A stretch of DNA of 64,000 nucleotides. Origin: Odontesthes bonariensis (taxonomy: Eukaryota > Chordata > Actinopteri > Atheriniformes > Atherinopsidae). The notes under the pieces are model-generated. The model saw only the letters and a list, made by a program, of their open reading frames with translations. It searched no databases and was not told the origin of the DNA. Made by a program: the position numbers and the translations under genes. This document shows positions 3,451 to 63,956 of this stretch, in pieces. Numbering within the stretch: position 1 is the first letter of the stretch; every line of letters starts with the position of its first letter. The stretch lies in assembly GCF_027942865.1 (NCBI RefSeq), contig NC_134507.1, forward strand, positions 35,021,711 through 35,085,710, read 5' to 3'.

Positions 3451-3499
3451 CCAAACAAACATGGAAAAGACCTAATCAACTCTGCCAACTCTGCCCTTT

Positions 3500-4560: not shown

Positions 4561-4599
4561 TCACGAAACCTCTCAGGCAACACGATTTGGATAATCGGA

Positions 4600-6655: not shown

Positions 6656-6659
6656 GCCA

Positions 6660-7395
6660 GGTCAATACTAATTAAGAAAAAGAGCAGTGAAAGGAAAAAC
6701 ACTCAGGCGCTCTAACCAGACCTGTGCTGCGTCACAAAGCAAGTGTAGCCAGTGTGCCAAAGGTCATCACTGACCCCTACTCAGTGTGTGTCCCCCCACT
6801 AACTAAACTGCCTAACCAAAACTAACCTAAACCAACTCAACCCTAGTCTTCAGGGGATCTGGCAGCGGGTATTTATGCACTGAAACCCACTGGTGTGGTG
6901 ATGCGACCAGTCATCTGGCAACACCACCAAAACCATGGACATGCCCCCGAGACAACTGCTCTAACCGCCGTCACCCCACACTACGGACAGATGAGCAGAT
7001 ACCAAAGGGAAAATGCACTTAGCCTAACAGAGGGAACACACGGTCCAATGTGACACACCAACCAACATTTACCCTGACAACCAGCCCAAAACATTAACAA
7101 ACAGCGCGCATAAACTAAATTACCACAACACAAACTACCTTCAAACTAGAACCAAATCAACTTCAATACCAAACCATGCACTTCCTCAAAACAACCAGGT
7201 CAGAGTTTCAACCTACCCCCAACAATAGTACCACCAGGAGAAACTCCTCACCTAACCACTGAAGCCATGCAAACTTCCAACAACCCCTCCCCCAGCAGGG
7301 CAGCGGGTAATCAGCACTCAGGTGCGCAGCAATCAACCCACCACCAACAACCCCAAGCTCAGAAACTACCCAATAAACTTTAGCAAATAGAACAA
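6660..7395. other. Leader of the Gmr1-type element, no gene seen
   Basis: This is the 5' untranslated leader between the right LTR with its primer site and Gag. I see no further coding sequence in it. Confidence 0.6.
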
Positions 7396-9315: not shown

Positions 9316-9479
9316 ATACTTACCTGGCAGGGGAGATATAATGATCAAGAAGGTGGTTCACCCAGGACAAGGCTCAGCCATTGCACACCGGCTGTACTGA
9401 CCCTTGCGAATTCCCCAAATGTGGGAATCTCGACTGCATAATTTCTGGTAGTGGGGGACTGCGTTCGCGCTCTCCCCTG
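9316..9479 (+). ncRNA. U1 snRNA, copy 1
   Basis: A 164-nt U1 sequence beginning ATACTTACCTGGCAGGGGAG, the 5' splice-site-recognising end, and ending GCGTTCGCGCTCTCCCCTG. The Sm site reads AATTTCTGG. U1 pairs with 5' splice sites in the spliceosome. In this copy the first stem-loop carries TATAATG where copies 2 and 3 have TACCATG, which weakens the stem that presents the U1-70K loop, so it may be a variant or a weak gene. Confidence 0.9.
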
Positions 9480-10040
9480 ATTTAAATGTATAATATAAAT
9501 ATCCCTGGGCAACTTTACCTTGTTTTTTGTCCTGACGTTGCTGCTTTAAGGACACCTTTCCATCTTTAAAACCAATGTTTTGCAAGGTTTACTGAATGCT
9601 GCGGCAGGTCTGCACAGCTGATATGCAGCTGCGCAGTTGTCAGGTGATGTCATACAGTGCGGTCATACAGTGCAGTCACCCCAGGCAGGTGGGCGTTGCC
9701 TTAGTGATGGCAACAACGAGATGAGAATACGGCAGCATTTCTGCACTGGAGATATTAAGCCGTGAGGGTTTGCCTCAACTAAGAATTTTCCCAGTGTGGG
9801 TGGGTGTGGCTCTAGAGATGGGGAGAGTGGAAAAACTAAATCAATTTGTGCTCCAAGTTCCTTGGTTGTTGAAACAAAAACTGATCAGAAAGATGAAGAA
9901 AAGCCGGAGTGTTTTAATCTGCAAGCTTTTCAGATTCAGGTTAGCTGCTGGCATGGCACTGCAGACAGTTGAATTTGCTGCACCGTCCGGCCGAGTGAGG
10001 CACCTGGAAAAGAGGTGTCAGCCTCTGACAGTTCCAACTC

Positions 10041-10205
10041 ATACTTACCTGGCAGGGGAGATACCATGATCAAGAAGGTGGTTCACCCAGGACGAGGCTC
10101 AGCCATTGCACACTGGCTGTACTGACCCTTGCGAAATTCCCCAAATGTGGGAATCTCGACTGCATAATTTCTGGTAGTTGGGGACTGCGTTCGCGCTCTC
10201 CCCTG
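10041..10205 (+). ncRNA. U1 snRNA, copy 2
   Basis: A full-length U1 of 165 nt with the intact stem I (TACCATG), the U1-70K loop GATCAAGAAGG, the Sm site AATTTCTGG and the 3' stem. It has one extra A in CTTGCGAAATTCCCC compared with copy 1. It is probably the best functional copy of the three. Confidence 0.92.
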
Positions 10206-10766
10206 ATTTGACTGTATAACGTGAATATCCCTGGGCAACTCTACCTTGGTTTTCGTCCTGGTGTTGCTGCTTTAACGACACCTTTCCATCTTTAAAACCA
10301 ATGTTTTGCAAGGTTTACTGAATGCTGCGGCAGGTCTGCACAGCTGATATGCAGCTGCGCAGTTGTCAGGTGATGTCATACAGTGCGGTCATACAGTGCA
10401 GTCACCCCAGGCAGGTGGGCGTTGCCTTAGTGATGGCAACAACGAGATGAGAATACGGCAGCATTTCTGCACTGGAGATATTAAGCCGTGAGGGTTTGCC
10501 TCAACTAAGAATTTTCCCAGTGTGGGTGGGTGTGGCTCTAGAGATGGGGAGAGTGGAAAAACTAAATCAATTTGTGCTCCAAGTTCCTTGGTTGTTGAAA
10601 CAAGAACTGATCAGAAAGATGAAGAAAAGCCAGACTGTTTTAATCTGCAAGCTTTTCAGATTCAGGTTAGCTGCTGGCATGGCACTGCAGACAGTTGAAT
10701 TTGCTGCACCGTCTGGCCGAGTGAGGCACGTGGAAAAGAGGTGTCAGCCTCTGACAGTTCCAACCC

Positions 10767-10861
10767 ATACTTACCTGGCAGGGGAGATACCATGATCAAG
10801 AAGGTGGTTCACCCAGGATGAGGCTCAGCCATTGCACACCGGCTGTGCTGATTCTTGCGAA
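10767..10861 (+). ncRNA. U1 snRNA, copy 3, 3'-truncated
   Basis: The first ~95 nt of U1 are present and well conserved, then the sequence leaves U1 after CTTGCGAA and continues as unrelated DNA. The Sm site and the last stem-loop are missing, so it is a truncated pseudogene at the array edge, although its PSE-like element remains. Confidence 0.88.
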
Positions 10862-11664
10862 TGGCCCTCAGCGCGTACAAAGTGCAAAATCGGATGTAGA
10901 CTGTAAGACAAATAAGGCATATTATTGGCTAAAAGATTTGTCAATCAAATCCATGGAGAGGGAGGGATGGGAAATCATGGGCATGCTGTACTATTGGTCA
11001 ATTAGCTGTCAAAAGCTGCCAGGCCATGTGGTGAAGTTTTGTTTCAGGGTGAATCTAGGGAAATGTACAAAATACGACTTAAATGATCGTTTTATACAAG
11101 TGTTTTGTCTAATTGGGAGTGTTGGACATTGAATCGTGTTTTAATGCTTGCATTGCTGTCTATTGATCACTTCATTTGAGTGATTTATTTATTTTCACCC
11201 ACCAGCTGGTACTTGGTATTGTATGAAAAAATGAAAAAGGTGGTTAAAAAAAGACATGAGACTAATTGGTGTGGCTATTTTTAGAAACATGTGGATGTGA
11301 ACGTAAACAAAACCTCTAAAGCTCTTATTTTTGTCTTCCCATTGGTCGACCCGCTGGTTTGAGGCCTACATGGTGATGGAGACATTGATTATGGGGGAAA
11401 TGACACACTGTTACCTCTGCAACATTGTCTATTAAGTCAATAAACTTTTTTATTTCTTCACAGTTGTATGCTGTTCATGTGTTTATTATTACAGATGATG
11501 GTATATCATGAATGATTATAATTACTGGTAGGTTACATTATAATGAATAGATTGAAGGAGAACATTGAAAGTGTTGACTTGGAATAAGAAATGACACAAC
11601 ACACTGCTACTGCGATTCAAGGCACTTTAAGGGCTGAAGTGCATTTATTCAAGTGCATTCTCAT
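10862..11664. other. Unassigned flank of the U1 array
   Basis: Unique-looking AT-rich sequence. I recognise no gene, RNA or element. Confidence 0.4.
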
Positions 11665-12234: not shown

Positions 12235-13186
12235 TTACCAGCCGTTGATGTCACAGATGGGCCTCACCGTGTTGCCGTAGCCACAGCGGTACAGGAAAGC
12301 CTTCGGGTTGTCCTTGGCAGGGCAGCCGGGCTCGGTGCAGCGGACGCTGTAGCGCCACACACCAACTGGCCTCCAGAAGAAGACGCGGTGTCGGAAGAAA
12401 CTGTCTGCCACGGGGACCGTGCTGCCATCCACCACACCGGGCATCTCGGGAGGGTGGAACCACATCTTTTCACTCTTCAGGACCTTCCTCCACCTCTTCC
12501 TGCCGTACATGTCAGAGAAGGGCCGCGGCTTCAGAAAGAGCCCCCTCTCCTCATCCTCCTTCAGCCACTTAATGTCTTGCTCGGGCAGCCCGCTGTCCTC
12601 AGCCTCCCAGGATTTGTGCCATCCTTCAAACAGGATGGCGTCTTCACCACCAACTGCCTTCTGTGACTGGCTCTCTGTAAATACAAAAAAACCCAAAACA
12701 CATTGATTATAGTATATCCACACTGTGGAATGAGGCTTTTCATTACAGCAGCCCACTGGATGTGACATGCACGATCTGTGTGCTATTAGCCAGTAAACTA
12801 ATACAACTTGTGTTAAATGAATATGTACCTTGAGTTTCGTAGGTGGACAGAGCCTCCATAAGCAGAGCGTCGTCTTCCCAGCTGGGGTCTGCTGAGCTGG
12901 GAGTGGTGGCTGATGGACGGGGCGCAAAGAAGGAGGGTACCGGTGAAGAGGTAGGCACAGCTGCACGGGGTGCTGGGGTGGCAGGCGATGGTGTTGGGGC
13001 AGCCGACTTGGAGGAGGCCTTCTTCTTCGGCTTCGCGGTGGTGGTGGGGGATGCTGCTGCTGCTGCTGGTGCTGAAGGGGGCTTTGTGGTGGAGGTAGGT
13101 GTGGCTGATGGACGATTCTTGCTGGTGATGGAGGGAGGTGCAGGAGGAGGAGGTGATTGAGGGGCCTTGCTGATGGTGGCAGTGGG

Positions 13187-13222
<36 letters not shown>

Positions 13223-14339
13223 AGATGCTGCTGGGGCCTTGCTGGTGATGGAGGGAGATGCAGGAGGAGGAGGTGATGGAGGGCCTTGCTGGTGGTGGGT
13301 GGTGCTGCTGCTGCTGCTGCAGATGCTGCTGGGGGCTTGTTGGAGGAAGCAGATGCGGTGGAAGGAGTGGCTACACCCTGCTGAGGTATTAGGAGGAATA
13401 TTACATTTCAGTTGTGCTCAATACATTTGTTATGTTATTCCTTTATACACATGTTCACCTGCACACATACCTCCTTGTCCATAATGTACTTTCTGAACCT
13501 CTTCAGGGCCTTTGAATTGATGTCATCCTCCTTCATGAGGAGCCACTGTGTCACCGACGTGTAGGCCTCCTGCGCCCTCTTCCTCTCAGCGTCGCTGCCA
13601 GCCTGAGGATCCGCCAGGAGCCTCTTGTACAGGCTGTACCACTGCCACATCTCCAGGTAGGTGAACGACTTGAACCTCCCCTGTCCATAGATGGCCCGGT
13701 CCACATTCACCTCCAGGTGGCACGAGACGGTGGTGAAGAGGTGCGCGTACTTGACCAGCTGCTCCTTCAGCCACTCGTCGTTGATGGTCTTCCTCTTCTC
13801 AGGGTGCCTCATCTCCTTCATGTGGCGGTTGACGATTCTGAAATGGCATAGTAATGTAACATAGTGATACAGTACTATTAAGTTATAACACTATTCACAT
13901 GGCGATCACATTTAGTGTACCACACTTACTATTTGCAGTAGCCGACATCATTCTCGACCAGCCACTTGAAGCTCTTGCTGGTGTACTGGCCAAAGGTCAT
14001 CACCAGCTGCCCCAGGACTTGCGCCTCAGTTGGAGAGGGTGTGACGATCTGGCATTTCTTCAAAGCTGTAGACAGATAAATAAGGGGGAACAAAATTAAA
14101 GTAATCATGCCTAGACAGTAGTGCAGTTGTAAGCACAGGGTTGTGCATGCACTCTTCTCACCTTCTTTGTAAGCCTTGTCTGAGTCTCTCAGCCTACTGT
14201 CCACTGTCTCACGGTCCCGTGCATGTGCCTTAAGGAAGTCCTTGGCCTCCTTGGTCATCCCAAGCACACACTGCTGCCTGTCCTTAGGGAAGCTTGTGTC
14301 CAGGATGGACAGCACAGGCATCAGAGGATCCATTTGCTT
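12235..14339 (-). pseudogene. Broken five-exon gene, last exon DUF6729-like
   Basis: Five exons with GT-AG borders can be traced: 14339-14162, 14065-13930, 13837-13471, 13380-12829 and 12674-12239. They encode an N part (DPLMPVLSILDTSF..., a possible start at 14332), a helical Trp-rich part (TYLEMWQWYSLYKRLLA), an Ala/Pro/Ser-rich repeat segment, and a C part with MWFHPPEMPG, FFRHRVFFWRPVGVWRYSVRC and AFLYRCGYGNTVRPICDINGW. That last wording resembles the DUF6729 family of unknown function (my recall, not a search). Three defects are visible: joining exons 2 and 3 makes a TAA codon, the repeat exon lacks one base near 13278-13283 compared with its own sister repeat, and no exon follows the apparent donor GTAAAT at 12238. 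It is probably a dead, truncated copy. Confidence 0.6.
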
Positions 14340-14593: not shown

Positions 14594-14639
14594 CACAACA
14601 GATGTTTCAACAAAAGACATGCAGAGAGAAGAGAAAAAT

Positions 14640-14747
14640 GCTTACAGCACCTGGTATTCCCAAGCGGTCTCCCATCCAAGTACTAACCAGGCCCGACCCT
14701 GCTTGGCTTCCGAGTTCGGGCGTGTTCAGGGCGGTGTGGCCGTAAGC
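14640..14747 (-). rRNA. 5S rRNA, copy 1, with 10-nt internal deletion
   Basis: A 5S sequence from GCTTACGGCCACACC to GGTGCTGTAAGC with a T-run terminator after it. It lacks 10 nt (CGATCTCGTC region) present in the other copies, so it is 108 nt instead of 118 and is likely a pseudogene. Confidence 0.85.
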
Positions 14748-15115
14748 CACAGTCCCTGTGACAAATATGTGTTACATAGGTGCTGGAACCATACGTTGAC
14801 CCTATTTTACCAGAGAGTTGGCTTGAGAGGCTGATGTTGAGCCTGCACGTCGACTTCCCTGATGTGATTGTTCTCTGCAGCTGAAAATGGGACTCTCAGA
14901 TAACTTAGTGTGTGTCTGTCAAGCTCCTCTGTTCTCTGTGTGTAGTTTGGTGTTCATGGTCATACAGAGAAACCAGGGAAGCTCAATCCCACGACGTGCT
15001 CATAAACTGCGTCTTTTCTAAAGATTATAGTTCCATTTTAGAAGTCAGAATACAATGGCTCCCTGAAACTACCACCATGTACCGCTGGTTTTGTTATTTC
15101 ACAAGAGTTGGGAAG

Positions 15116-15302
15116 AGTGCACCGTTCCCGGCGGCACTGCAGTACCGGGTCGATGCGTGGAGTGAACGGAGCAAGCCCCTTTTTCAACCCCTGTGCCTAA
15201 AAATCCATTTAATATGTAGTCCTCATATAGAGGACGTATCAGATATTAAACTGATAAGAACAGATACTACACTTGATCTTAGCCAAAAGGCCGAGAAGCG
15301 AT
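15116..15302 (-). ncRNA. U2 snRNA, copy 1
   Basis: A full-length U2 of ~187 nt. The start ATCGCTTCTCGGCC, the branch-point recognition segment GTGTAGTATCTGTTC, the stem IIa/IIb region, an Sm-like ATTTTTAG and the 3' loops ending GGAACGGTGCAC are all present. U2 pairs with the intron branch point. The exact 3' end is judged by analogy with vertebrate U2. Confidence 0.93.
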
Positions 15303-15347
15303 AACCCTCCACTGTTTCACGTCCGAGCGCCCTTCCTGGCACAATGC

Positions 15348-15365
15348 GCACTTGTGGCGGTGCTC
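15348..15365 (-). promoter_or_regulatory. PSE-like element of U2 genes
   Basis: On the - strand GAGCACCGCCACAAGTGC lies at -63 to -46 from the U2 start. The same element is at 17043-17060 and 18738-18755. Spacing and the CACCG core match the U1 and U5 elements here. Confidence 0.55.
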
Positions 15366-15600
15366 TTTTTTTGCCTACAAAGCGTCACTTTGCACCTCCG
15401 CCCACCCGCTGCAGTGAGCACTCTTCAGCCGTTTCAGATGGTACAACTTTGCACTCCCGCCCGCTCCACTGAGCACCATTCAAACAACAACAATTTAGCG
15501 CTCCAGCTTTGAACATGGGCACGGTCTCAAGAAATAAGGTGACTCTACTCCGAGAAGTCACTTGGCACAGCAAGAAGATTTCCTTTGCACAGACAGAATG

Positions 15601-15719
15601 GGCTTCACCCGCAAAGGTAAAGCCTTCCAAAAATAGAAACAACTCATTAATGTTGCTCTCCACGGAAGTCTTTAGTAAAAGGCGAAAGACTTGTACGTTA
15701 TGAAGAGAAACCAGAGTAC
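15601..15719 (-). ncRNA. U5 snRNA, copy 1
   Basis: A ~119-nt U5 sequence. It begins GTACTCTGGTTTCTCTTC, contains the invariant loop 1 CGCCTTTTACTAAAGA, then an Sm site TATTTTTGGA and a 3' stem (GGCTTTACC pairing with GGGTGAAGCC). U5 loop 1 holds the exon ends during splicing. The first base is G instead of the usual A. Confidence 0.92.
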
Positions 15720-15766
15720 GAGTATTTGACACTGCGGGAGCAGTGCATCAGGCTAGTTGGCATAGC

Positions 15767-15785
15767 CACCTTCCCCACGGTGAGC
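15767..15785 (-). promoter_or_regulatory. PSE-like element of U5 genes
   Basis: On the - strand GCTCACCGTGGGGAAGGTGG lies at about -66 to -48 from the U5 start, close to the vertebrate PSE form. The copy is at about 17462-17480. Confidence 0.55.
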
Positions 15786-16023
15786 TTTGCTTGGTTGAGA
15801 CGTTGGCTCCTCGGCCGACCAGGTAGGAACAATCGGGCCCTATTCAATGGCTGCTTTGTCTTTTACTCTGTGCAAAAGACTAGGGGTCTTGAGGCTTTGT
15901 TCTGACCGCTCATTGGGTGTAGAGGTTTTTTTCAAGCAATTCTCCCAGTCGGCCCAATCCCAGAGCCATCTCAAAGTGGAGTTCACTTTCACTCTCTTTT
16001 CGCAGACTAAAAGCCAGAGTTTT

Positions 16024-16103
16024 ATCTCAGAAGCTAAGCAGAGTCGGGCCTGGTTAGTACTTGGATGGGGAGACCGCCTGGGAATACCAGGTGCTGTAAG
16101 CCT
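16024..16103 (+). rRNA. 5'-truncated 5S rRNA, inverted, unit 1
   Basis: About 80 nt matching 5S from TCTCAGAAGCTAAGCAG to GGTGCTGTAAGC followed by CTTTT. The first ~37 nt are missing. The internal promoter region is largely kept. It lies on the strand opposite to the full 5S, about 220 bp away. Confidence 0.85.
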
Positions 16104-16324
16104 TTTGGCTTCTCCAGGCGCATGCAGTTTGACTGCGTCAAATGCAAAGGCAGTCCCTGTTTGACTTTTTGGAACTGCTCCTTTGTCAGGACAAAGTTAA
16201 ATGTATGAGGATCAAAGGCAACCATGACCTGGGACACCTTAGCAGATCCAGGATCAGCAAGATGGATCACAGGGTGATCAACAGATGTTTCAACAAAAGA
16301 CATGCAGAGAGAAGAGAGAAAATT

Positions 16325-16442
16325 GCTTACAGCACCTGGTATTCCCAAGCTGTCTCCCATCCAAGTACTAACCAGGCCCGACCCTGCTTGGCTTCCGAGT
16401 TCGGACGAGATCGGGCGTGTTCAGGGCGGTGTGGCCGTAAGC
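16325..16442 (-). rRNA. 5S rRNA, copy 2
   Basis: A full 118-nt 5S body, GCTTACGGCCACACC to GGTGCTGTAAGC, followed by AATTTT as Pol III terminator. One base differs from copy 3 (AAGCTGTCTCCC against AAGCGGTCTCCC on the + strand). Confidence 0.92.
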
Positions 16443-16810
16443 CACAGTCCCCGTGACAAATATGTGTTACATAGGTGCTGGAACCATACGTTGCCCCTAT
16501 TTTACCAGAGAGTTGGCTTGAGAGGCTGATGTTGAGCCTGCACGTCGACTTCCCTGATGTGATTGTTCTCTGCAGCTGAAAATGGGACTCTCAGATAACT
16601 TAGTGTGTGTCTGTCAAGCTCCTCTGTTCTCTGTGTGTAGTTTGGTGTTCATGGTCATACAGAGAAACCAGGGAAGCTCAATCCCACGACGTGCTCATAA
16701 ACTGCGTCTTTTCTAAAGATTATAGTTCCATTTTAGAAGTCAGAATACAATGGCTCCCTGAAACTACCACCATGTACCGCTGGTTTTGTTATTTCACAAG
16801 AGTTGGGAAG

Positions 16811-16997
16811 AGTGCACCGTTCCCGGCGGCACTGCAGTACCGGGTCGATGCGTGGAGTGAACGGAGCAAGCCCCTTTTTCAACCCCTGTGCCTAAAAATC
16901 CATTTAATATGTAGTCCTCATATAGAGGACGTATCAGATATTAAACTGATAAGAACAGATACTACACTTGATCTTAGCCAAAAGGCCGAGAAGCGAT
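16811..16997 (-). ncRNA. U2 snRNA, copy 2
   Basis: Same U2 gene body as copy 1, shifted by exactly 1695 bp; I see no difference in the RNA. Confidence 0.93.
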
Positions 16998-17295
16998 AAC
17001 CCTCCACTGTTTCACGTCCGAGAGCCCTTCCTGGCACAATGCGCACTTGTGGCGGTGCTCTTTTTTTGCCTACAAAGCGTCACTTTGCACCTCCGCCCAC
17101 CCGCTGCAGTGAGCACTCTTCAGCCGTTTCAGATGGTACAACTTTGCACTCCCGCCCGCTCCACTGAGCACCATTCAAACAACAACAATTTAGCGCTCCA
17201 GCTTTGAACATGGGCACGGTCTCAACAAATAAGCTGACTCTACTCCGAGAAGTCACTTGGCACAGCAAGAAGATTTCCTTTGCACAGACAGAATG

Positions 17296-17414
17296 GGCTT
17301 CACCCGCAAAGGTAAAGCCTTCCAAAAATAGAAACAACTCATTAATGTTGCTCTCCACGGAAGTCTTTAGTAAAAGGCGAAAGACTTGTACGTTATGAAG
17401 AGAAACCAGAGTAC
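17296..17414 (-). ncRNA. U5 snRNA, copy 2
   Basis: Same U5 gene body as copy 1, shifted by 1695 bp, with its PSE-like element. The third unit has lost its U5. Confidence 0.92.
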
Positions 17415-17718
17415 GAGTATTTGACACTGCGGGAGCAGTGCATCAGGCTAGTTGGCATAGCCACCTTCCCCACGGTGAGCTTTGCTTGGTTGAGACGCTG
17501 GCTCCTCGGCCGACCAGGTAGGAACAATCGGGCCCTATTCAATGGCTGCTTTGTCTTTTACTCTGTGCAAAAGACTAGGGGTCTTGAGGCTTTGTTCTGA
17601 CCGCTCATTGGGTGTAGAGGTTTTTTTCAAGCAATTCTCCCAGTCGGCCCAATCCCAGAGCCATCTCAAAGTGGAGTTCACTTTCACTCTCTTTTCGCAG
17701 ACTAAAAGCCAGAGTTTT

Positions 17719-17798
17719 ATCTCAGAAGCTAAGCAGAGTCGGGCCTGGTTAGTACTTGGATGGGGAGACCGCCTGGGAATACCAGGTGCTGTAAGCCT
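17719..17798 (+). rRNA. 5'-truncated 5S rRNA, inverted, unit 2
   Basis: Identical in form to 16024-16103, so the truncated inverted 5S is a fixed part of the repeat unit. Confidence 0.85.
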
Positions 17799-18019
17799 TT
17801 TGGCTTCTCCAGGCGCATGCAGTTTGACTGCGTCAAATGCAAAGGCAGTCCCTGTTTGACTTTTTGGAACTGCTCCTTTGTCAGGACAAAGTTAAATGTA
17901 TGAGGATCAAAGGCAACCATGACCTGGGACACCTTAGCAGATCCAGGATCAGCAAGATGGATCACAGGGTGATCAACAGATGTTTCAACAAAAGACATGC
18001 AGAGAGAAGAGAGAAAATT

Positions 18020-18137
18020 GCTTACAGCACCTGGTATTCCCAAGCGGTCTCCCATCCAAGTACTAACCAGGCCCGACCCTGCTTGGCTTCCGAGTTCGGA
18101 CGAGATCGGGCGTGTTCAGGGCGGTGTGGCCGTAAGC
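18020..18137 (-). rRNA. 5S rRNA, copy 3
   Basis: A full 118-nt 5S with terminator TTTT, as copy 2. Confidence 0.92.
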
Positions 18138-18505
18138 CACAGTCCCCGTGACAAATATGTGTTACATAGGTGCTGGAACCATACGTTGCCCCTATTTTAC
18201 CAGAGAGTTGGCTTGAGAGGCTGATGTTGAGCCTGCACGTCGACTTCCCTGATGTGATTGTTCTCTGCAGCTGAAAATGGGACTCTCAGATAACTTAGTG
18301 TGTGTCTGTCAAGCTCCTCTGTTCTCTGTGTGTAGTTTGGTGTTCATGGTCATACAGAGAAACCAGGGAAGCTCAATCCCACGACGTGCTCATAAACTGC
18401 GTCTTTTCTAAAGATTATAGTTCCATTTTAGAAGTCAGAATACAATGGCTCCCTGAAACTACCACCATGTACCGCTGGTTTTGTTATTTCACAAGAGTTG
18501 GGAAG

Positions 18506-18692
18506 AGTGCACCGTTCCCGGCGGCACTGCAGTACCGGGTCGATGCGTGGAGTGAACGGAGCAAGCCCCTTTTTCAACCCCTGTGCCTAAAAATCCATTT
18601 AATATGTAGTCCTCATATAGAGGACGTATCAGATATTAAACTGATAAGAACAGATACTACACTTGATCTTAGCCAAAAGGCCGAGAAGCGAT
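18506..18692 (-). ncRNA. U2 snRNA, copy 3
   Basis: A full U2 with its PSE-like element. The array breaks off at 18857, about 165 bp upstream of this gene, so any distal enhancer element may be lost. Confidence 0.92.
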
Positions 18693-47284: not shown

Positions 47285-48901
47285 TTATAGGGAGAATGCC
47301 AGTTTGAATAGGTGAGTTTTAAGTTGGGATTTGAATGATGTGATGGAGTCTGACTGTCTTATGAGTGGGGGGAGGGAGTTCCAGAGCCTGGGTGCTGAGC
47401 AGCTGAAGGCTCGGTCACCCATGGTCTTGAGGCGTGACGTGGGGATGGTTAGCAGTCCAGCAGAGGTTGAGCGGAGGGTGCGGGAGGGAGTGTGTTGGTG
47501 AAGGAGGTCGCTGAGGTAGGTGGGGGCTAGGTTGTGGAGAGCTTTATAGGTGAGGAGAATATTTTTGTAGTGAATGCGGTATTGTACTGGGAGCCAGTGA
47601 AGTTGGATGAGAACAGGGGTGATGTGGTCTGAAGATTTGGTACCGGTGATGATCCGGGCGGCTGAATTCTGGATGATTTGCAGTCTGTTAATGAGTTTGG
47701 TGGGGAGTCCAGTGAGCAGGGCATTGCAATAGTCAATGCGGGATGTGACAAATGAATGAACCAGGATTTCAGTGCTGGATTGGGTCGGTGATGGGCGGAG
47801 TCTGGAGATGTTGCGGAGGTGGAAGAATGCGGTTCGAGTGATATTTTGAATGTGGGGTGCAAATGAAAGGGTGCTGTCCAGAATAACGCCGAGGCTCTTG
47901 ACTTGGGGTGAAAAGGGTACAGGAAATCCGTCGATGATGATGGGTGGAACTGGGTTGTGATGTGATTTGGTGAGGATGGATTTGGAGCCGATGAGCAGGG
48001 CCTCGGTTTTGTTGCTGTTAAGTTTAAGGAAGTTCCTGCTCATCCAGCTCCGGATGTCTTCAAGAAAGATGATGAGGGAGGGGGGAGGGATGGCGGCGGT
48101 GGGTTTGGAGGAGATGTAGACCTGTGTGTCGTCAGCGTAACAGTGAAAATGGACTCCATGGTGACGGAGGAGTGTGCCCAGGGGGAGAAGGTAGATGATG
48201 AACAGAAGTGGACCCAAGACTGACCCCTGGGGGACACCCAGTGAAACACCCGAACACCCAGACTTGTGGTTCCTTAGTTGCACGAATTGTTGGCGGTCAG
48301 TGAGGTATGATGTGAACCAGGAGAGTGCAGCACCAGTGATCCCAATGCCAGCCAGGCAGTCCAGGAGCAGAGGGTGGGAGATGGTGTCGAACGCTGCACT
48401 GAGGTCGAGGAGGATGAGAATGGTGAGGAGCCCAGAGTCAGCTGCACGGAGGAGGTCGTTGCTGATTTTGACCAGGGCTGTTTCAGTGCTGTGTTTTGGA
48501 CGGAAGCCAGATTGGAACGGTTCGTGGAGGTTGTTTGTGTCAAGGTGGGACTGTAGTTGTGCTGCAATCACCCTTTCAAGTGTCTTGGAGATGAAGGGGA
48601 GGTTGGAGATGGGCCGGTAGTGGTTGAGGACAGCTGGGTCAGCACCAGGTTTTTTCAGGATGGGTGTGATGGCAGCCAGTTTGAGAGTGGGGGGTACAAT
48701 ACCAGTGGTGAGGGAGGAGTTAATTATGTTGGGGATTATGGGAGAAATGGAAAGCAGACAGGCTTTGACAAGCGAGGTGGGAAGAGGATCAAGCTGACAG
48801 GTGGTGGTTTTGGCTTTATTGATGTATTCCGAGATGGTGTGTTCTGATGCTGGGGTGAAGTCAGAGAGAGAGCTGATGAGAGGTTGTCCAGTGGTGATCA
48901 T
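47285..48901 (-). CDS. L2 reverse transcriptase, open 538-codon part
   Basis: One uninterrupted frame encodes the whole RT and C-terminal region: [50 protein letters not shown], the catalytic [11 protein letters not shown], and the ending [18 protein letters not shown] ... [13 protein letters not shown] typical of L2 and CR1. The ATG at 48901 is internal to the original protein; the frame continues upstream to the hAT insertion point at 48954. Confidence 0.9.
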
Positions 48902-49764
48902 CCAGGGTGGATCTTTTGGGGAGGTGCAGGATGAGGCCAGTTGTTGGTGAATAGTAGTGATGCTCCGATCGATCGGCCGATAATGCCCAAAAATAGCCTG
49001 ATCGGCGATCGGAAAAATATGCCGATCAAAAAACCGATCACGTGACGTAAATTAGGCTTCTAGCGACCACTTTCTAATGTGTTACGTGACGTGTGTACAG
49101 AACCGAACAGGCAAAACCTCTACAGTGCATCTCGACAACATGACCTCTCCTGTCTGGAATTTCTTCAAAGTGTGTCAGAAAGATGTGAAACTTACTGCGG
49201 TCACGCTATCTGCGCTTCGGAGTGGCACGGTCGCGCTAGCTACACTTGAAAATCGAGTGCCCGTTTACATCACGTTATACGGTAAAACGTGTGAGCGGTT
49301 TCATGGTGCATTCAAGTGCACCCCGTAAACTCAGAAATCTATATCGAAGTTGATTTTTCATTTGTTGGAATACATACACCTGTCATTACTTGGTTGTTTT
49401 TTTACTACATTCTTTTTAATGATTAAAGGTCCCATGGCATGAAATTTTCACTTTTTAAGGTTGTTTAACATTAATATGAGTTCCTCTAGCCTGCCTGCGG
49501 TCCCCCAGTGTCTAAAAATGACGATAGACCTAAACCATGCACTGGAAATTATTCTCTGCCTTTGGAAATGTGACCATGCAGAAGGCATGATCGAGAAAGC
49601 CGCCGCTTATGACGTGTGCCCGCTTATGACGTGGAGGTTGTTTCCACCCAGAGCCAATAAACTGCCTTTCCCCGCCCACAGCTCTTTGGCCAGCTCATTG
49701 TAAAATCAGTTGAAAGTCTGCGCAACGCCATCTTGATTTTTCTGCGTAGGATATCTAACACACC

Positions 49765-52700
49765 ATGGCTGATCGAAAGCATAACATTTGCTCTGTACAT
49801 GGATGTACAACGGATCTAAAAAATCTTTTTAAAGCTCCTGCATCAGAACCCCTAAAGAGCCAGTGGTCAGATTTTGTTTTTTCTGGGAAAGTGACAAAAG
49901 AACAGAAGAGATTTGTGTATGTGTGCGCCAAACATTTCACGGAGGATTGTTTCCAAAACTTGGGCCAATACCGAGCTGGCCTTGCCGATCGTCTTAAAAT
50001 GAACCCTGGATCAGTACCAACTCTCTTTGGCCCAACTACAGACCTCGGACAAGTAAGTAATTTAACGCTCTATAATTGTCTTGCTTTTATGTATGTACAG
50101 TATAGTTAAATAGCTTGTTACCACAAGAAAGTGTCCTGAAAGTATCGTTAGCTCTGCAGCTAATAGCTAATGCAGCTACTGTCGCTAATGTAACAGTAAA
50201 TAGCATGAGGTATGCGAGTGGACACCTCATTTACTGTAACGCCAGTGTTGTGTACTTATTTGTTGTTTTGATAGCCGTCCTGCTGTTGGTGTTATGGCGC
50301 GCACGATATCTGCCTTTCCCCTGATTGAAATGACTAGCACTACGTCCATCTTTGCAAACCAGAGCAATCAGCTGAGAATGTCAAAATCGCGATTAGCATA
50401 GGGCTAAGTCTTCAAACTTGCATTTGGAAGATATACAAAGTAATAACTTGTACTAATTTGACCTTGTTGTATCTACACAGGCCAGCACATCAAGTGCTTT
50501 TATTCAGCTGCCTCTCTCAAGGGATGTTGCCTGCCAGACAGACCAACTGGAAACACATACTGTAGCCACACAGCTATCCTTTAGGACTTTGAAGGCCCAC
50601 ATCAGAAGTGAAGGTATTTTGACCCTGTATTTATTTTGCTTGAGAAAACAACAGAACAAAACTTTACTAAAGACCAGTGTTATATTTTGCATGTCTTACT
50701 AATGATCGCAAGAAAAATTATTACAATGCGTTGGATGCAGCCTGAGCCTCATACAGTGGCTCAATGGAGACAGAGGTGTAATCAAGTCCAAGTGATGGAA
50801 AATATGACTGCCATTCTACAGTTAAAATTACCCCTTTTCCTTAGGAGATGGACACCTGTCATTCTTTATATTGGTTAAGCATATAATTGTATAAGACGAA
50901 TGTAACATAAGCTTGCAATCAAGGTGAACCTTTTTTTTTCTAATGTATTTTTATTTTAATTTTATTTTATTTTAATTTTCAATTTTATTTGTATATGTGT
51001 GTTTTATGTATAATATTGTTATTATTATTATTTGTCTGTTTCTGTGTGGTGTGTTTGTTTGTATTGCCTATACGTTATTGGCAATAAAGTAAAAAAAAGA
51101 AAGAAGTGAAGGTATGTTCTAGCCACCTTCAATAAGATGAGATTAACTTTATTGTCCCACATGTGAAAGTGGGTTAGAAGAGTGCTGTCACTGTATGAAT
51201 ACATCATATGTCATACACATGAATGACTTGACATATCAAACAAACATACATCCTGACGGTACAATGGTGATATTTGTTGCAGGTGTCCAGGCAACTGTCT
51301 CCTGCAAAGACTTTGGTGTTGGGACGTCCAATGTAGACCCTTTGTTCCTGTCATCAACACCAGTAAAGAGACCATCCAAAAGACCTCGATTGGATCTTGA
51401 GGAGGAGCAGGAAGATGATGCATTGGAGGGAAGCTCTTTAGTGGATACCCCAAAGGGACAGGATTCCACTTATGACCCTGCAGACTCTGTCACAGCGTCC
51501 GAAAACTCTACACTGAGGCTGTAAGTTATCATTATCTGTGTGTGAGTGTGAAGAAAATGTAGGGATTGTGAGAACTTTCATAATTTTTTTTTAATTGTAT
51601 GGCATTCCAACATGAAGGATTGGTCTCAGCGAGACTGTTGTTGTTTATAGCATTACTTTTAGGATTATTTATGTGCATACAGATTATTCATCCGGCTTCA
51701 AGGAGTGTGCTGGTTTAAAGTACTGTCCAGATGAAAGCTCAATCTGATCAACTCAAAATGTGTTTTGCTTTCTTTGTGGTTTTATATAGAGAGGAGTCCT
51801 CCACTTCCACACACATCAAGAAGTACATAGTGTACGAGAACTGCATCATGCAGTTGTTTAATGCATGTCCGGTCTGCACACGGGCATGTGATGTGAAGAC
51901 TCAAAGGCTGGGGACATTCCTGTCTGTGAAGCAGCGGTGTCCCCACTGCACATTTAGAAGACAATGGAATAGCCAGCCTATCCTGGGTAGCACGCCAGCT
52001 GGAAACCTGCACCTTTCTGCCGCTGTGTACCTGAGTGGTGCATCTTTCATACAAATAGAAAAGGTAAAGTATGTGCAACTGTAGATACCGTAACTGAAAT
52101 ACTTGTATTTATATCAAATTACATGTATTATTTCTCCCCTCCACACCCAGGTCTTCAAGGCAATGAAGCTGGAGTTGTTTCGGTATGAAACATTTCGCCG
52201 GCATGCCAGAGCCTTCATTGAACCTGCAGTTATTCACCACTGGAAAGTCACACAGGATGTGAATCTGCAGCGGCTTACTCGGGAGGAAAAAGTCATACTC
52301 GGTGGTGACATGAGGGCTGATTCTCCAGGTATTGTTACTTGACTGAAGTATTGTATTTTGTACAGTGATATTGTTTGAAGTTCAAAGGAATGACAGCAGG
52401 CAGGGGGTGGTTTTATCAAGGTCTTTAGCTCCAACTATCTGTAGCCAAAGGCCAGCAATCAGAGTGTAATAGTGCTGGCTCTGAGACACACAAAAGCCAG
52501 GGACCAGGTCTGATGGCTCTAAGCAGTGTGTTGTTATGTGAAGTTATGAATTGCACCTAAATATAAGAATACATAATATGTATTGAATAGTGATTCCAAG
52601 TGTCATTATTTAAACCCAATTTTTAACAGGTCACTCTGCAAAATATGGGAGTTACACCATGATGGATCTCCAAACTAACACCGTTGTGGACATTCAGTTG

Positions 52701-54587
52701 GTCCAGGTGAGTTGTTGAAATTGACTCTGTAAAGGGGTTATTTGTTGTAATTTAAAAATCAAGGTCCATAATACATTGTCTACTAATGTGTTTTTTTTTC
52801 TGTGGTGACAGAGCAACGAGGTTGGTGGTAGCTGCTATATGGAGAAAGAGGGCCTGACGAGGAGTCTGGCCTTGCTCGAGTCGCGTGACGTCAAACTGGA
52901 TTGCATTGTCACCGATCGTCATCCTCAAGTTCAAAAGTTCCTCAGGGAGAGAAACATCACCCAGTACTACGATGTGTGGCACTTCGCAAAAGGTAACTAT
53001 TCAGGTTTTCAGGTAACCTAAAGTACTTATGGCATCTGAGGTGGAAAAGACGCTGGCGTTCACCAGTGAATCAACATGTTTGGTCAAAGTCAGATGTTCA
53101 GAAATATCAACACCAAGATCTACTCTTTCCACCTCAGAGTCGTTAATCTGGACTGGTTGGTAGACTTTCTGCTGATATTGCCTGAAATCTATATATATCT
53201 CCTTAGTCTTGGTAACAATAGGAGTAGGTTGTTGTCTTGGCAACAGTTTGAAAGTCTATCTACCTCATTCAAGTAAGCCTGCTCATTGTTCTTAGAAATT
53301 AGGTCAACTACTGCTGTGTCATCAGAAAAATTGACAGCAGTGATGTTGGACAGTCAAATGCTGACATTATGAGTCAATATTATCAAATGCTTTGAAATTG
53401 TTTTTGAATTGCTACAGCATAGTTGTCACTCTTACTCTTTACTAAGTGGAATGTTGTTTGCTTTCATTTTAGGAATTTCAAAGAAACTGGAAGTCCTATG
53501 TAAGATGAAAGACTGTGAGAAACTGAACAAGTGGATGAAAAGCATCAACAACCACATATACTGGACTGCAGCTAATTCAACCTCAGGGCCAGAGAGAATT
53601 GCCAAGTGGAACGCGATCCTCAACCATGTGCAAGATATCCACACGCATGAGAATCCTCTTTACCCCAAGTGTGAGCATGCAATCCGCACAACAACGGACA
53701 AAAAGAAATGGCTCCAAGCAGGTATCTCAACCAATATGCAGGCAAAATGTTAAAACAGCAAACAGACAAGCAAACAACGAGGTCATTGCTGTGATATTTG
53801 TTACTGTATTGTTTTCTAATAAGATATTTTGTTATTGTTTGCAGCAACTCCAGCTTTCTACAAGTTGGAGTCTCTGCTGACAAAGAAAAGAACGCTGAAG
53901 GATGTGGAAAAACTGAGCCCCCACCACCAAACGTCATCTTTGGAGGCTTTCCATGCAGTCATCCTTCGTTTTGCTCCAAAAAATGTAGTGTTTCCCTTTA
54001 TTGGAATGCTGTGCAGGTAAAACAAATCTTTACTCAATACTTTTAGGAATTTTAGTTTAAAATATCTGTCAATATGAACAAATATTTTTATCTTGTACTT
54101 CCAGACTCTACCTGGCTGCTATGCATTTCAATGAAAATGCGGATCGACCACAGGCCGAAACGGAGGAAGGTGTACCCCTCTTTAAACTCTCCTTTCCAAA
54201 GTCTCGGAAGGGAGAGTGCAGAGCTAAACCAGTAAAGACGAAGGCGACCTTTGGTAATGGTTCAAATCAATTAAAATGACACATTGTTTGGAATTTTAAC
54301 ATTTATTTCTCTCGAAGAAAAATGGATTACATACAAATACACAAAATGCACAGTAAAAACAAAACTCAACCAATTAAATGGAGATATTGCTTGTGCTTTA
54401 TGATACAGGTTATGTTTCTGACATGATGGACCTAATCTTCGATGAAGTCTTTTTTAACCCGACACCATACAACGATGCGCTGTTGGCCATCTCTGTCCCA
54501 GAAAACTTATCAGCGCAGTATGAGAGGCCGGACAAGGAAGAGGTCATTGCCAGCTTTGTTTCAAGGTTCAAACAGGGGGCCGTTTAA
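49765..54587 (+). CDS. Kolobok transposase with THAP domain, 11 exons, 705 residues
   Basis: Exons: 49765-50052, 50481-50613, 51283-51520, 51790-52063, 52151-52328, 52630-52706, 52812-52992, 53473-53721, 53845-54016, 54105-54253, 54409-54587. Every border has GT-AG and all phases agree; the sum is 2118 bases with one stop at the end. Residues 1-90 are a THAP zinc finger (C9, C14, C54, H57, with W34). A Ser/Pro and acidic linker follows. A zinc ribbon CPVC...CPHC precedes WNSQP (about 240-285). The transposase core has DMRADSPGHSAKYGSYT, MEKEGLTRSL, DCIVTDRHPQV and DVWHFAKG (about 365-455). It would cut and paste at TTAA. The start is chosen because the THAP domain begins there. Intron 7 holds a LINE scrap. 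Confidence 0.85.
53020..53360 (-). mobile_element. CR1/Rex1-like LINE RT scrap in transposase intron 7
   Basis: On the - strand the text AVNFSDDTAVVDLISKNNEQAYLNEVDRL, then TKTKEIYIDFRQ and SEVERVDLGVDISEHLTLTKHVDSL, matches the catalytic YADD region and what follows in this LINE type. It lies wholly inside the intron, so splicing removes it. Confidence 0.75.
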
Positions 54588-55709
54588 ACCCAACATAGTG
54601 GCCTTCCTCATCAGGAAACTCCGAGCGGATGCGCAGGACCACACAGGCTGGAATTACAACCCGGATTCTGCGTCCCAAGAAGCCCCAGCACCAGCTCACA
54701 AAACTGCGACAGGACAGATACCTGTAGCGACTGAACAATTGATTCAGAAATTTTAGATATTAAATTCTGAATGTATCATTGTGTGTGTGAAAAAATAATT
54801 CTATGCACCAATGGATCATATTCGGTCTGTTTTGTGTCCCCCCCCCCCCCACCCCATCCCTCGCTGTACAAAAATAAATAAATTATTGGAATACAAAGTC
54901 AAAACTCTAAACTTCTGTTATTAACTTATCTAACAATGCACAATTTACCGGTGTATTTCTCTGAACTGTAGAGGACCATAGTCGGCATTTTGAAGTGAGT
55001 AGACATTTAGGCAGACAGGCTCCAATCCAGGATGGTCTACCATGCATGGGAGCTGTTCTTCGACCTCCCGAAGTCGTGTAGTAACCTTTTTTAGAATTAG
55101 AAACGGTAAGTGACATTTATTAGCAAAATTAGTTGCCGAAAGAAGAGACAAATTATTTTCCAGTGAGGTGGTGAGAATGTTACCTGTGGTATCTCAAGGC
55201 AGCAAATATTCTCCACTTCTGTGGGCATAGTTGCACATTTTCCACAATGGCAAATATGTAAAAAATGTAGGTGGATATAAACAACATAAAAAGGTATAAT
55301 GGCTTGTTAGTGTCTAGCTTGTGGCTGTTGAGTAAGTAAACATCAAATGTGCTCTGGAGTAAATCAAATATTATTTTTCATACGGTGAACATTTATCTTC
55401 AGGAATAAATCATGAGTAATGTGCAACATGATTTACATGGATGTGAAGGCTGCATAGCTCTTTTTTATGACAAAGATTACTGATATAACTAGACATACAA
55501 CTACTTCAGCATAGGTAGCTAAGCCCACATGATAATATCTGTAACAACACATAAGCAAAACAAACTAAATTAACGGCGAAATACTTAACTAACCATTCAG
55601 AGACGTCCTGCTGTAGTCGCTGATTTTCAACTTCTTCAACTTCTTCTCCATCTGGATCAGACTCTGGGTCAAATTGAAAAGCTTGAACGACTGCTGTTCT
55701 ACGTGCCAT
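54568..55709 (-). CDS. P2X7 intracellular (ballast) domain-like gene in the Kolobok element
   Basis: Four exons are seen on the - strand: 55709-55594 (MARRTAVVQAFQFDPESDP, then an acidic run, ending in DVSEW with donor GTTAGT), about 55253-55185 (CHCGKCATMPTEVENICCLEI), 55085-54949 (LPCMVDHPGLEPVCLNVYSLQ) and 54730-54568 (FVSWCWGFLGRRIRVVIPACV and RIRSEFPDEEGHYVGFKRPP, then TGA). The CxCGxC...MPTE...CC pattern and the ending VIPACVVLRIR...EFP...Y.GFK follow the Cys-rich intracellular module of P2X7 receptors and its stand-alone relatives in fish. Exons 3 and 4 join in phase. I could not find an AG acceptor before exon 2, so the gene may be damaged there. No membrane segments are present. The role in the transposon is unknown. 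Confidence 0.75.
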
Positions 55710-56310
55710 AGCGATTCACAACGCATTTGCGCATGGTACCAAGGGCGGAAGTAAGGCCACACCCCCACCCTCCGCTTTGCCCCGTCTTTCTCCTCCTAAT
55801 TTGCATTTAAAGCTGCAGGCCCTAAACAGCTCATTCTGAGGATCCTAAGAAAAACTCATTTTGGGACTGGCTGTAATTCTGCACCAAGGCAGAATGTTGC
55901 CTATATACAGTATAATACAGTATAAGGGGACCACTAAAGCCTCTAAAAATATATAAAAGCCTCCATTTATTTTCATGTCATAGGATCTTTAAAACAAAAT
56001 GATAGAACAAAATTATTGAAGCATATTCAGAATCAAACTCATTTCTGCATAGTCAGATTTGAAAACTTCATTTAGAACCAAATCAAAATGTTCTCTGCCG
56101 ACTCCACCAGATTCTTGTTCTACATGTCCCCAGCTACCTCTGGCGGTTTAATTTCTATAAATGGTGCACTCTCTGCTAGATGAAAGGCATGGAAATGTCC
56201 GATTCCTTCCGTGATCGGCAGTGATCGGCAATCGGGCAGATCATGATTTTGGTGATCGGTGATCGGTGATCGGTCCAAAAAATGCTGATCGGATCATCAC
56301 TAGTGAATAG

Positions 56311-60602: not shown

Positions 60603-63600
60603 CACCTTACCGTGGTGGGGGGGTTTGCGTGCCCCAATGAGTCTGGGAGCTATGTTGTCTGGGGCTTTAAGCCCCTGGTAGGGTCACCCATGGCAAACAG
60701 ATCCTAGATGAGGGACCAGACAAAGAACAGCTCACAAGACCCCTATGATGAGTGATACGTTTGGACGCCGTGTTCCCTTGCCCGGACGCGGGTCACCGGG
60801 GCCTCCCCCTGGAGCCAGGCCCAGGGGTGGGGCCCGCCGGCGAGCGCCTGGTGGCCGGGTCTGTGCCCGTGGGGCTTGGTCGGGCACAGCCCGAAGAAAC
60901 GACACGGGTCCCCCTTCCTACGGGCTCACCACCCGTGGGAGGGGCCATGGGGGTCGGGTGCAATGTGAGCTGGGCGGCAGCCGAAGGCAGGGACCTTGGC
61001 GGTCTGATCCTCGGCTACTGAAGCTGGCTCTTGGGACGTGGAACGTCACCTCTCTGCTGGGGAAGGAGCCTGAGCTGGTGCGCGAGGCTGAGCGGTTCCG
61101 GCTAGATATAGTCGGACTCACCTCGACGCATGGCTTGGGCTCCGGAACCAGCCTCCTCGAGAGGGGTTGGACTCTCTTCCACTCTGGAGTTGCCCGCGGT
61201 GAGAGGCGTAAAGCAGGTGTAGGCATACTTATTGCCCCCCGGCTGTGCGCCTGTACATTGGGGTTCACCCCGGTAGACGAGAGGGTAGCCTCCCTCCGCC
61301 TTAGGGTGGGGGGACGGGTCCTGACTGTTGTTTGTGCTTATGCACCGAACGGCAGTTCAGAGTACCCACCCTTTTTGGAGTCCCTGGAGGAGGCACTAGA
61401 GAGTGCTCCTCCGGGAGACTCCCTCGTCCTGCTGGGGGACTTCAATGCTCACGTGGGCAATGACAGTGAGACCTGGAGGGGCGTGATTGGGAGGAACGGC
61501 CCCCCCGATCTGAATCAGAGTGGTGTTTTGTTGTTGGACTTCTGTGCTCGTCACGGATTGTCCATAACGAACACCATGTTCAGGCATAAGGGTGTCCATA
61601 TGTGCACTTGGCACCAGGACACCCTAGGCCGCAGCTCGATGATCGACTTTGTAGTCGTATCATCGGACTTGCGGCCGTATGTCCTGGACACTCGGGTGAA
61701 GAGAGGGGCGGAGCTGTCAACTGATCACCACCTGGTGGTGAGTTGGCTCCGCTGGTGGGGGAGGAAGCCGGTCAGACCTGGCAGGCCCAAACGTATTGTG
61801 ATGGTCTGCTGGGAACGGCTGGTGGAATCCCCTGTAAGGAGGAGTTTCAACTCCCACCTCCGGCAGAGCTTCAACCATGTCCCGGGGGAGGTGGGGGACA
61901 TTGAGCCCGAATGGGCCATGTTCCGTGCCTCCATTGTTGAGGCGGCCGACCGGAGCTGTGGCCGCAAGGTGGTCGGTGCCTGTCGTGGCGGCAATCCCCG
62001 AACCCGCTGGTGGACCCCAGTGGTGAGGGAGGCCGTCAAGCTGAAGAAGGAGTCCTATCGGGCCTTTTTGGCCAGTGGGACTCTGGAAGCAGCTGATGGG
62101 TACCGACAGGCCAAGCGGAACGCAGCCTCGGCGGTTGCTGAGGCAAAAACTCGGGCTTGGGAGGAGTTCGGGGAGGCCATGGAGAACGATTTCCGGACGG
62201 CCTCGAGGAGATTCTGGTCCACCATCCGGCGGCTCAGGGGGGGGAAGCGGTGCACCGTCAACACCGTGTATGGTGAGGGCGGGGCTCTGCTGACTTCAAC
62301 TAGGGACGTCGTGAGTCGGTGGGGGGAGTACTTCGAGGGCCTCCTCAATCCTACCGACACGCCTTCCGATGAGGAAGCAGAGTTGGGGAGCTCGGACGTG
62401 GGACCTCCCATTTCTGGGGCTGAGGTTGCCGAGGTGGTCAAAAAACTCCTCGGTGGCAAGGCCCCGGGGGTGGATGAGGTCCGTCCTGAGTTCCTCAAGG
62501 CTCTGGATGTTGTGGGGCTGTCTTGGTTGACACGCCTCTGCAGCATCGCGTGGACATCGGGGGCAGTGCCTCTGGACTGGCAGATCGGGGTGGTGGTCCC
62601 CCTCTTTAAAAAGGGGGACCGGAGGGTGTGTTCCAACTATAGGGGGATCACACTCCTCAGCCTCCCTGGTAAGGTCTTTTCGGGGGTACTGGAGAGGAGG
62701 ATCCGCCGGATAGTCGAATCTCGGATTCAGGAGGTGCAGTGTGGTTTTCGTCCTGGCCGTGGAACAGTGGACCAGCTCTTCACCCTCCGCAGGATCCTGG
62801 AGGGAGCATGGGAGTTCGCCCAACCTGTCTACATGTGTTTTGTGGACTTGGAGAAGGCGTTCGACCGTGTCCCTCGGGGACTCTTGTGGGGGGTGCTCCG
62901 GGAGTATGGAGTGCCGGACTCCTTGATATGGGCTGTTCGGTCCCTGTATGACCGGTGTCAGAGTCTGGTCCGCATTGCCAGCAGTTAGTCGGACATGTTT
63001 CCTGTGAGGGTTGGACTCCGTCAGGGCTGCCCTTTGTCACCGATTCTGTTCATAATTTTTATGGACAGAATTTCTAGGCGCAGCCAGGGCGTCGAGGGGG
63101 TCCGGTTTGGCGACCTCAGAATCGGGTCTCTGCTTTTTGCGGACGATTTGGTTCTGTTGGCGTCGTCAGGCCGTGACCTTCAGCTCTCACTGGAGCGGTT
63201 CGCAGCCGAGTGTGAAGCGGCTGGGATGACCATCAGCACCTCCAAATCTGAGACCATGGTCTTCGGCCGGAAAAGGGTGGAATGCTCTCTCCGGGTCGGG
63301 AATGAGATCCTTCCCCAAGTGGAGGAGTTCAAGTATCTCGGGGTCTTGTTCACGAGTGAGGGACGAATGGAACAGGAGATTGACAGACGGATTGGTGCGG
63401 CGTCTGCAGTGATGCGGGCTCTGCACCGGCCCGTCGTGGTGAAGAAGGAGCTGAGCCAGAAGGCGAAGCTCTCGATTTACCGGTCAATCTATGTTCCTAC
63501 CCTCACCTATGGTCACGAGCTGTGGGTAGTGACCGAAAGAACGAGATCGCGAATACAAGCGGCCGAAATGAGTTTCCTCCGCAGGGTGTCTGGGCTCTCC

Positions 63601-63956
63601 CTTAGAGATAGGGTGAGAAGCTCGGTCATCCGGGAGGGGCTCGGAGTAGAACCGCTGCTCCTCCGCATCGAGAGGAGTCAGATGAGGTGGCTCGGGCATC
63701 TGGTGAGAATGCCTCCTGGACGCCTCCCCGGTGAGGTGTTCCGGGCCCGTCCCACTGGGAGGAGACCCCGGGGAAGACCCAGGACACGTTGGAGAGACTA
63801 TGTCTCTCGGCTGGCCTGGGAACGCCTCGGGGTCCCCCCAGAAGAGCTGGAGGAAGTGGCCGGGGACAGGGACGTCTGGGTCTCTTTGCTCAAGCTGCTG
63901 CCCCCGCGACCCGATCCCCGGACCAGCGGAAGATAATGGATGGATGGATGGATGGA
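60603..63956 (+). mobile_element. RTE-like LINE, full length, 32-bp target duplication
   Basis: The element starts CACCTTACCGTGGTGG and ends in a (TGGA)n tail at about 63937-63956. A perfect 32-bp direct repeat flanks it (60571-60602 and 63957-63988). This proves target-primed insertion and suggests a recent event. The family is the very abundant teleost LINE with a tetranucleotide tail that I place near RTE/RTE-X by eye. Confidence 0.9.
60745..63936 (+). CDS. RTE-like LINE protein, endonuclease and RT, one in-frame stop
   Basis: A single frame of 1064 codons is open except for one TAG at 62986-62988 (between RIASS and SDMFPV), where relatives usually have a Lys or Arg codon. The N-terminal endonuclease has [22 protein letters not shown] and [10 protein letters not shown] (residues ~90-340). 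The RT has [47 protein letters not shown] and [12 protein letters not shown] (~620-800). A C-terminal tail follows with [16 protein letters not shown]. No separate ORF1 is seen. The start ATG at 60745 is the first in frame but unproven. Confidence 0.88.

Follow-up and report, generated by a model that had tools for sequence, protein, structure and literature searches.

A P2X7-ballast-like gene between Kolobok transposon ends in Odontesthes bonariensis

A gene resembling the cysteine-rich intracellular module of the receptor P2X7 can be read, in the genome of Odontesthes bonariensis, between what look like the ends of a Kolobok transposon. Does such a gene belong to the transposon, has it been picked up from the host, or does it lie there by accident? 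And if it belongs to the transposon, what is its relation to the receptor? We address these questions in a stretch of 64,000 nucleotides of contig NC_134507.1 (assembly GCF_027942865.1), which we refer to as the window. The original prediction, made from the letters of the window, had treated the gene as a passenger. Kojima & Bao (2022, PMC9587614) report, however, that the Kolobok elements of the Kol0 group encode a protein, KolX, which resembles the C-terminus of P2X7 and adopts the ballast fold, and we use their name for the gene below.

The element, its ends and its transposase

Kolobok elements are characterised by TTAA target-site duplications, by termini of the form 5'-RR...YY-3', and by a DDD/E transposase with a C/DxxH motif between the second D and the E (Kojima & Bao 2022, PMC9587614). 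The element in the window extends from 49427 to 55988 (6562 bp) with TTAA on both sides. That is, a 4-bp TTAA duplication is found at 49423 and 55989 (49423..49426 on the left, 55989..55992 on the right), and the element begins with AG and finishes with CT, in agreement with the purine and pyrimidine termini. The left terminal inverted repeat (49427..49444, + strand) starts AGGTCC and matches the right one (55971..55988, - strand, with GGATCT at its end on the + strand) at 15 of 18 bases; with TTAA counted in, 19 of 22 bases of the inverted ends are identical. The TTAA-flanked Kolobok ends that had been predicted are therefore real, but they fall outside the interval originally given, 54568..55709, which is exact for the KolX gene from ATG to stop.

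TTAA is frequent, with 347 sites in the window, and this frequency speaks for an accidental arrangement, in which the resemblance to P2X7 is due to chance or a host gene happens to lie amid unrelated TTAA sites. Among those 347 sites, however, the right end is the top partner of the left end, with 16 of 20 inner bases shared, as against 11 for the runner-up. When the same 20-base end score is computed at every position of the window, one place scores 16 and one scores 15. The Pfam, PDB and profile matches reported below argue against an accident as well, as does the nesting of the Kolobok in another, hAT-like element, and we regard such an accident as practically negligible.

This host element (48955..56302), inside which the Kolobok is inserted, has ends alike at 15 of 16 bases and is bordered by an 8-bp duplication, GTGAATAG, at 48947-48954 and 56303-56310; from the duplication and the ends together, we take it to be hAT-like. 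When its flanks are joined with one copy of the duplication, a continuous frame of 638 amino acids results, and the ORF holding the left part of that frame (47285-49051) matches a reverse transcriptase family (E 9.4e-37). Given this continuous reverse-transcriptase frame across the joined flanks, we conclude that a LINE was hit by the hAT-like element, which in turn received the Kolobok.

The transposase gene lies on the + strand (49765..54587). Its 11 exons give an open frame of 705 amino acids, with GT/AG borders at all 10 introns, and an N-terminal THAP domain is recognised in the product (E 4.2e-9). From their order and from the motif DVWH at 450-453, which is of the DxxH kind and falls between the second D and the E as in Kolobok, we propose D364, D431 and E573 as the catalytic residues. 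In an alignment of 94 relatives, defined as the proteins of 640-770 aa within the best 120 of 465 matches, D364 is shared by 85, D431 by 87, D450 by 88, H453 by 81 and E573 by 84. Between DxxH and the last E, H508, H513, H515, C523 and H525 are also conserved in this alignment of retrieved relatives; a zinc finger in that interval is reported for all Kolobok groups but Kolobok1 (Kojima & Bao 2022, PMC9587614). A transposase of this kind would bind the ends of the element through its THAP domain, and then cut and paste at TTAA.

The 465 matches were those at E <= 1e-3 after 7991 candidates had been scored. Closest by identity among the matches listed is P0094, likewise from O. bonariensis, which covers 66 percent of the transposase query and is identical to it at 464 of 466 residues. 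Because one of the two differences falls on the second putative catalytic D, we take P0094 to be another copy or allele. With nine queries, no relative of the transposase was found in the window outside the element at 49-56 kb at E 1e-3; the P2X channel domain, for its part, is absent from the 705-aa transposase and from the eight ORFs of the element that were scanned.

Several other features were observed elsewhere in the window. Adjoining ORFs at 3312-6661 (-) carry SCAN, integrase zinc-binding and integrase C-terminal domains and are probably an LTR-type element, and a further non-LTR element at 60712-63936 (+) has endonuclease and reverse transcriptase spread over two adjoining ORFs. An ORF at 12235-13407 (-) matches Pfam DUF6729 (E 2.5e-12). 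Rfam matches place three copies of U1 snRNA in tandem at 9316-10909 (+), at a spacing of 725-726 bp and with a much lower score for the third, and they reveal at 14639-18692 (-) tandem units of 1695 bp in which U2 snRNA (3), U5 snRNA (2) and 5S rRNA (3) are linked on one strand.

The KolX gene and the P2X7 ballast domain

The KolX gene occupies 54568-55709 on the - strand and consists of four exons and three introns, with its ATG at 55709 and its stop codon at 54570-54568. It is convergent with the transposase gene, and the 3' coding ends of the two overlap by 20 bp (54568..54587). Exon 1 (55594..55709) contains the start codon, and its 3' border is placed by reference to the family; the conserved part of exon 2 (55184..55252) contains CxCGxC and CC; exon 3 (54949..55085) contains the sixth conserved cysteine; and exon 4 with the stop codon (54568..54730) contains the Pfam domain P2RX7_C. 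The three peptides on which the likeness to P2X7 was originally read are present on this strand, in the order claimed for them.

A profile search was expected to return a match of the P2X7 type, and it does so with exon 4, whose ORF alone matches P2RX7_C (PF20478) at 38.8 bits (E 1.2e-9; cut-off 23.5). The ORF of exon 2 alone reaches 13.1 bits, which is under the cut-off, and P2RX7_C was not matched by the ORFs of exons 1 and 3 in the Pfam scan. In P0001, the nearest relative of the window protein, P2RX7_C is the sole domain found and scores 56.1 bits. The spliced KolX protein matches four distinct PDB sequences, all of them P2X purinoceptor 7 (best E 4.6e-5). A profile made from 40 relatives, near-identical P0001 among them, matches all four exon ORFs (E 1.2e-11 to 2.7e-29). 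A second profile, built on 78 relatives, was run against PDB: four distinct P2X7 sequences come out at E <= 8.2e-12, and iC++ follows at E 0.45. When the KolX family is compared by profile with the C-terminus of rat P2X7, the probability is 99.1. All 27 members of our alignment A1 match P2RX7_C as well, having been chosen from matches already so labelled. As a matter of sequence, the match between KolX and P2RX7_C is far above chance.

We compared rat P2X7 with 26 KolX-like proteins, chosen by hand from the match lists. Six cysteines (C477, C482, C498, C499, C506 and C572) are present in all 26, and a seventh, C479, in all but one; these we take to be the seven zinc-coordinating cysteines of the rat protein. 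All seven can also be read in the KolX exons of the window, and a ballast domain is described as having seven cysteines (Kojima & Bao 2022, PMC9587614). Among the residues that contact GDP in rat, R546 is kept in 25 of the 26 proteins and R578 in 24, while R574 and K583 are kept in none (with one gap at K583). Their absence does not exclude membership in the ballast family, because P2X7 of fish and amphibians is likewise reported to be without R574 and K583 (Rump et al. 2020, PMC7016195). Y550 is retained by all but one of the 26 proteins; the exception is P0001, and the window likewise has C where rat has Y.

KolX and the P2X7 ballast domain therefore share the seven cysteines, the equivalents of R546 and R578, and the ending EFPxxxGxYxGF. 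KolX differs in being without the channel domain and without R574/K583, and P0001 is 25 percent identical to rat; moreover, KolX has three introns, whereas the ballast of P2X7 is encoded by one exon (Rump et al. 2020, PMC7016195). A structure model of P0001, computed from 27 sequences, is poor (mean pLDDT 53.1), and the support for a ballast fold here comes from the sequence comparisons.

How intact is the gene in this copy? The O. bonariensis gene model P0001 bears the name "P2X purinoceptor 7-like"; it is near-identical to the window gene but is without its gap in exon 3. Exact pieces of the window cover 162 of the 167 residues of P0001, and the remainder is this gap of six residues (one residue being counted twice), which leaves exon 3 of the window 18 nt short. 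No AG acceptor was found where exon 2 should begin. The 330 nt upstream of the exon contain 17 AGs, 16 of which then run into stops, and the nearest AG, 50 nt from the exon, does not fit the phase of the expected exon-1 donor. Neither the gap nor the absent acceptor figured in the original prediction. Because the exon-2 acceptor is absent and six residues are missing, KolX is probably not made in full from this copy; that is, the gene is unlikely to splice normally or to be expressed as a full protein. If KolX is defective here, then the copy would rely on KolX from other copies, or else KolX would be dispensable. Such details of a single copy are ordinary for an ageing transposon. It is conceivable, though we lean against it, that the family as a whole is on the way to doing without KolX, with KolX acting in trans or being dispensable. 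If this were true, the loss of KolX in a copy with an open transposase and paired inverted ends would allow an accessory role to be tested by setting copies against one another.

Another KolX-like exon, now decayed (CSCGRCEPMPVVDESVCCREQ), was observed at 29366-29154 (-). It matches the KolX profile at E 7e-6, its top single match is P0248 (E 5.4e-8), and its score against P2RX7_C, 11.3 bits, is under the cut-off. A plausible AG acceptor lies 5' of this exon.

Relatives of KolX and their pairing with transposases

Searches with KolX return 79 relatives by sequence at E <= 1e-3, and 215 by profile at E <= 1e-5. The best 120 of these 215 come from many fish, and also from molluscs, sea cucumbers, an acorn worm, a nemertean, a sea spider and an anemone, if our assignment of the species names to animal groups is right. 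The stand-alone module was said to recur in fish and to be named often after the receptor, and this is seen among the relatives; two others, P0209 and P0243, bear the name nanor. In one gene model, P0212, THAP and P2RX7_C are combined in a single protein.

This distribution bears on the direction in which the domain has moved. Similarity alone has no direction, and KolX could in principle derive from the receptor, the transposon having captured the ballast exon of P2X7. A tree of the 26 KolX-like proteins with the C-terminus of rat P2X7 is uninformative on this point, since P2X7 is placed unreliably, on a very long branch (3.1, with support 0.74). KolX-like proteins, however, occur in several invertebrate groups, whereas typical P2X7 is reported from bony fish and tetrapods and not from jawless or cartilaginous fish (Rump et al. 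2020, PMC7016195). The three introns of the window gene, set against the single ballast exon of P2X7, also speak against a capture from the receptor. On account of the animal-wide distribution of KolX and its intron structure, we judge this direction of transfer to be very unlikely.

If KolX is a regular gene of the transposon, relatives of the two proteins may be found side by side. We used equal contig size as a stand-in for the same contig, and read pairs by eye among the matches listed. Coilia grayii provides one pair with consecutive gene numbers, the transposase relative P0107 (ACEWY4_010434) and the KolX relative P0039 (ACEWY4_010435), whose contigs are of equal length. In Triplophysa rosa, which has 25 chromosomes, all four transposase relatives listed (P0114, P0131, P0144 and P0163) have contigs equal in length to those of KolX relatives, of which five appear among the matches listed (P0216, P0219, P0239, P0255 and P0256); with 25 chromosomes, the chance of this coincidence is ~4e-4, for a species picked after looking. 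Further pairs of equal contig size among the matches listed come from Engraulis (1), Carassius (2) and Leuciscus (3); both pairs of Leuciscus waleckii, however, have gene numbers hundreds apart. Among the same matches, no agreement in contig size with a same-species transposase relative was seen for four other KolX relatives of Coilia and four others of Engraulis, or for the two of O. bonariensis and the one of Gadus chalcogrammus. For example, P0001 and P0094 are on contigs of differing length.

The pairs are relevant to the passenger reading, according to which an ordinary Kolobok took up a nanor-like gene of its host. Stand-alone ballast proteins such as nanor do occur in fish (Rump et al. 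2020, PMC7016195), as the two relatives of that name illustrate, and nanor and nanor-b of fish belong with KolX to the same family of stand-alone ballast proteins. But nanor itself is interpreted as a likely domesticated KolX (Kojima & Bao 2022, PMC9587614), whereas the window gene is still inside a transposon. Elements of the Kol0 group are described as encoding KolX as their second protein (PMC9587614), and this, together with the consecutive gene numbers in Coilia, makes uptake from the host highly improbable. The prediction was thus correct in placing the gene inside Kolobok ends; its description as a passenger we have dropped, because KolX is the regular second gene of Kol0 (Kojima & Bao 2022, PMC9587614).

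Kol0, KolX and the origin of the P2X7 ballast

KolX is present in the window element as a second protein, and it is from this gene content that we assign the element to the Kol0 lineage. With Kol0 (type Kolobok-1_XT) the element shares TTAA duplications, RR...YY ends, a DDE transposase with DxxH, and the ballast-like second protein; we found no difference in kind, and the window copy has a probably defective KolX. Taken as a whole, the locus is very probably best explained as a single genomic copy of a Kol0-type Kolobok DNA transposon. Within such an element, KolX may serve as an accessory factor of transposition, stabilised by zinc; it might help by binding to the transposase, to nucleic acid or to a guanine nucleotide.

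As for the receptor, Kojima & Bao (2022, PMC9587614) propose that P2X7 originated when a P2X4-like gene was fused with KolX; an ancient KolX gene, joined to a P2X4-like receptor gene, would on their account have become the ballast domain. The suggestion in the original prediction that a transposon is the likely source of the receptor's module matches this published proposal. The same authors state that in diverse animals ballast proteins belong to Kolobok elements, which had previously not been pointed out, and that a few piggyBac families encode a KolX-like protein without most of the seven cysteines (PMC9587614). Such a domain is therefore found, in a few cases, outside Kol0 as well. Capture of the ballast domain was described by Rump et al. 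(2020, PMC7016195), in whose paper the string "transpos" has no occurrence. Besides Kojima & Bao, our search of the literature on P2X7 or ballast in relation to Kolobok, KolX or transposons showed no publication on the link among the titles listed, and PMC9319628 is unrelated to it.

The link between KolX, P2X7 and transposons has thus been in print since 2022, and only the window copy and its details are new. The raw sequence does give a separate route to the published point that, in fish, Kolobok elements can harbour P2X7-ballast-like genes. It follows for the annotation of fish genomes that many gene models with the name "P2X purinoceptor 7-like" probably represent proteins of transposons and are best left out of any count of receptor genes.
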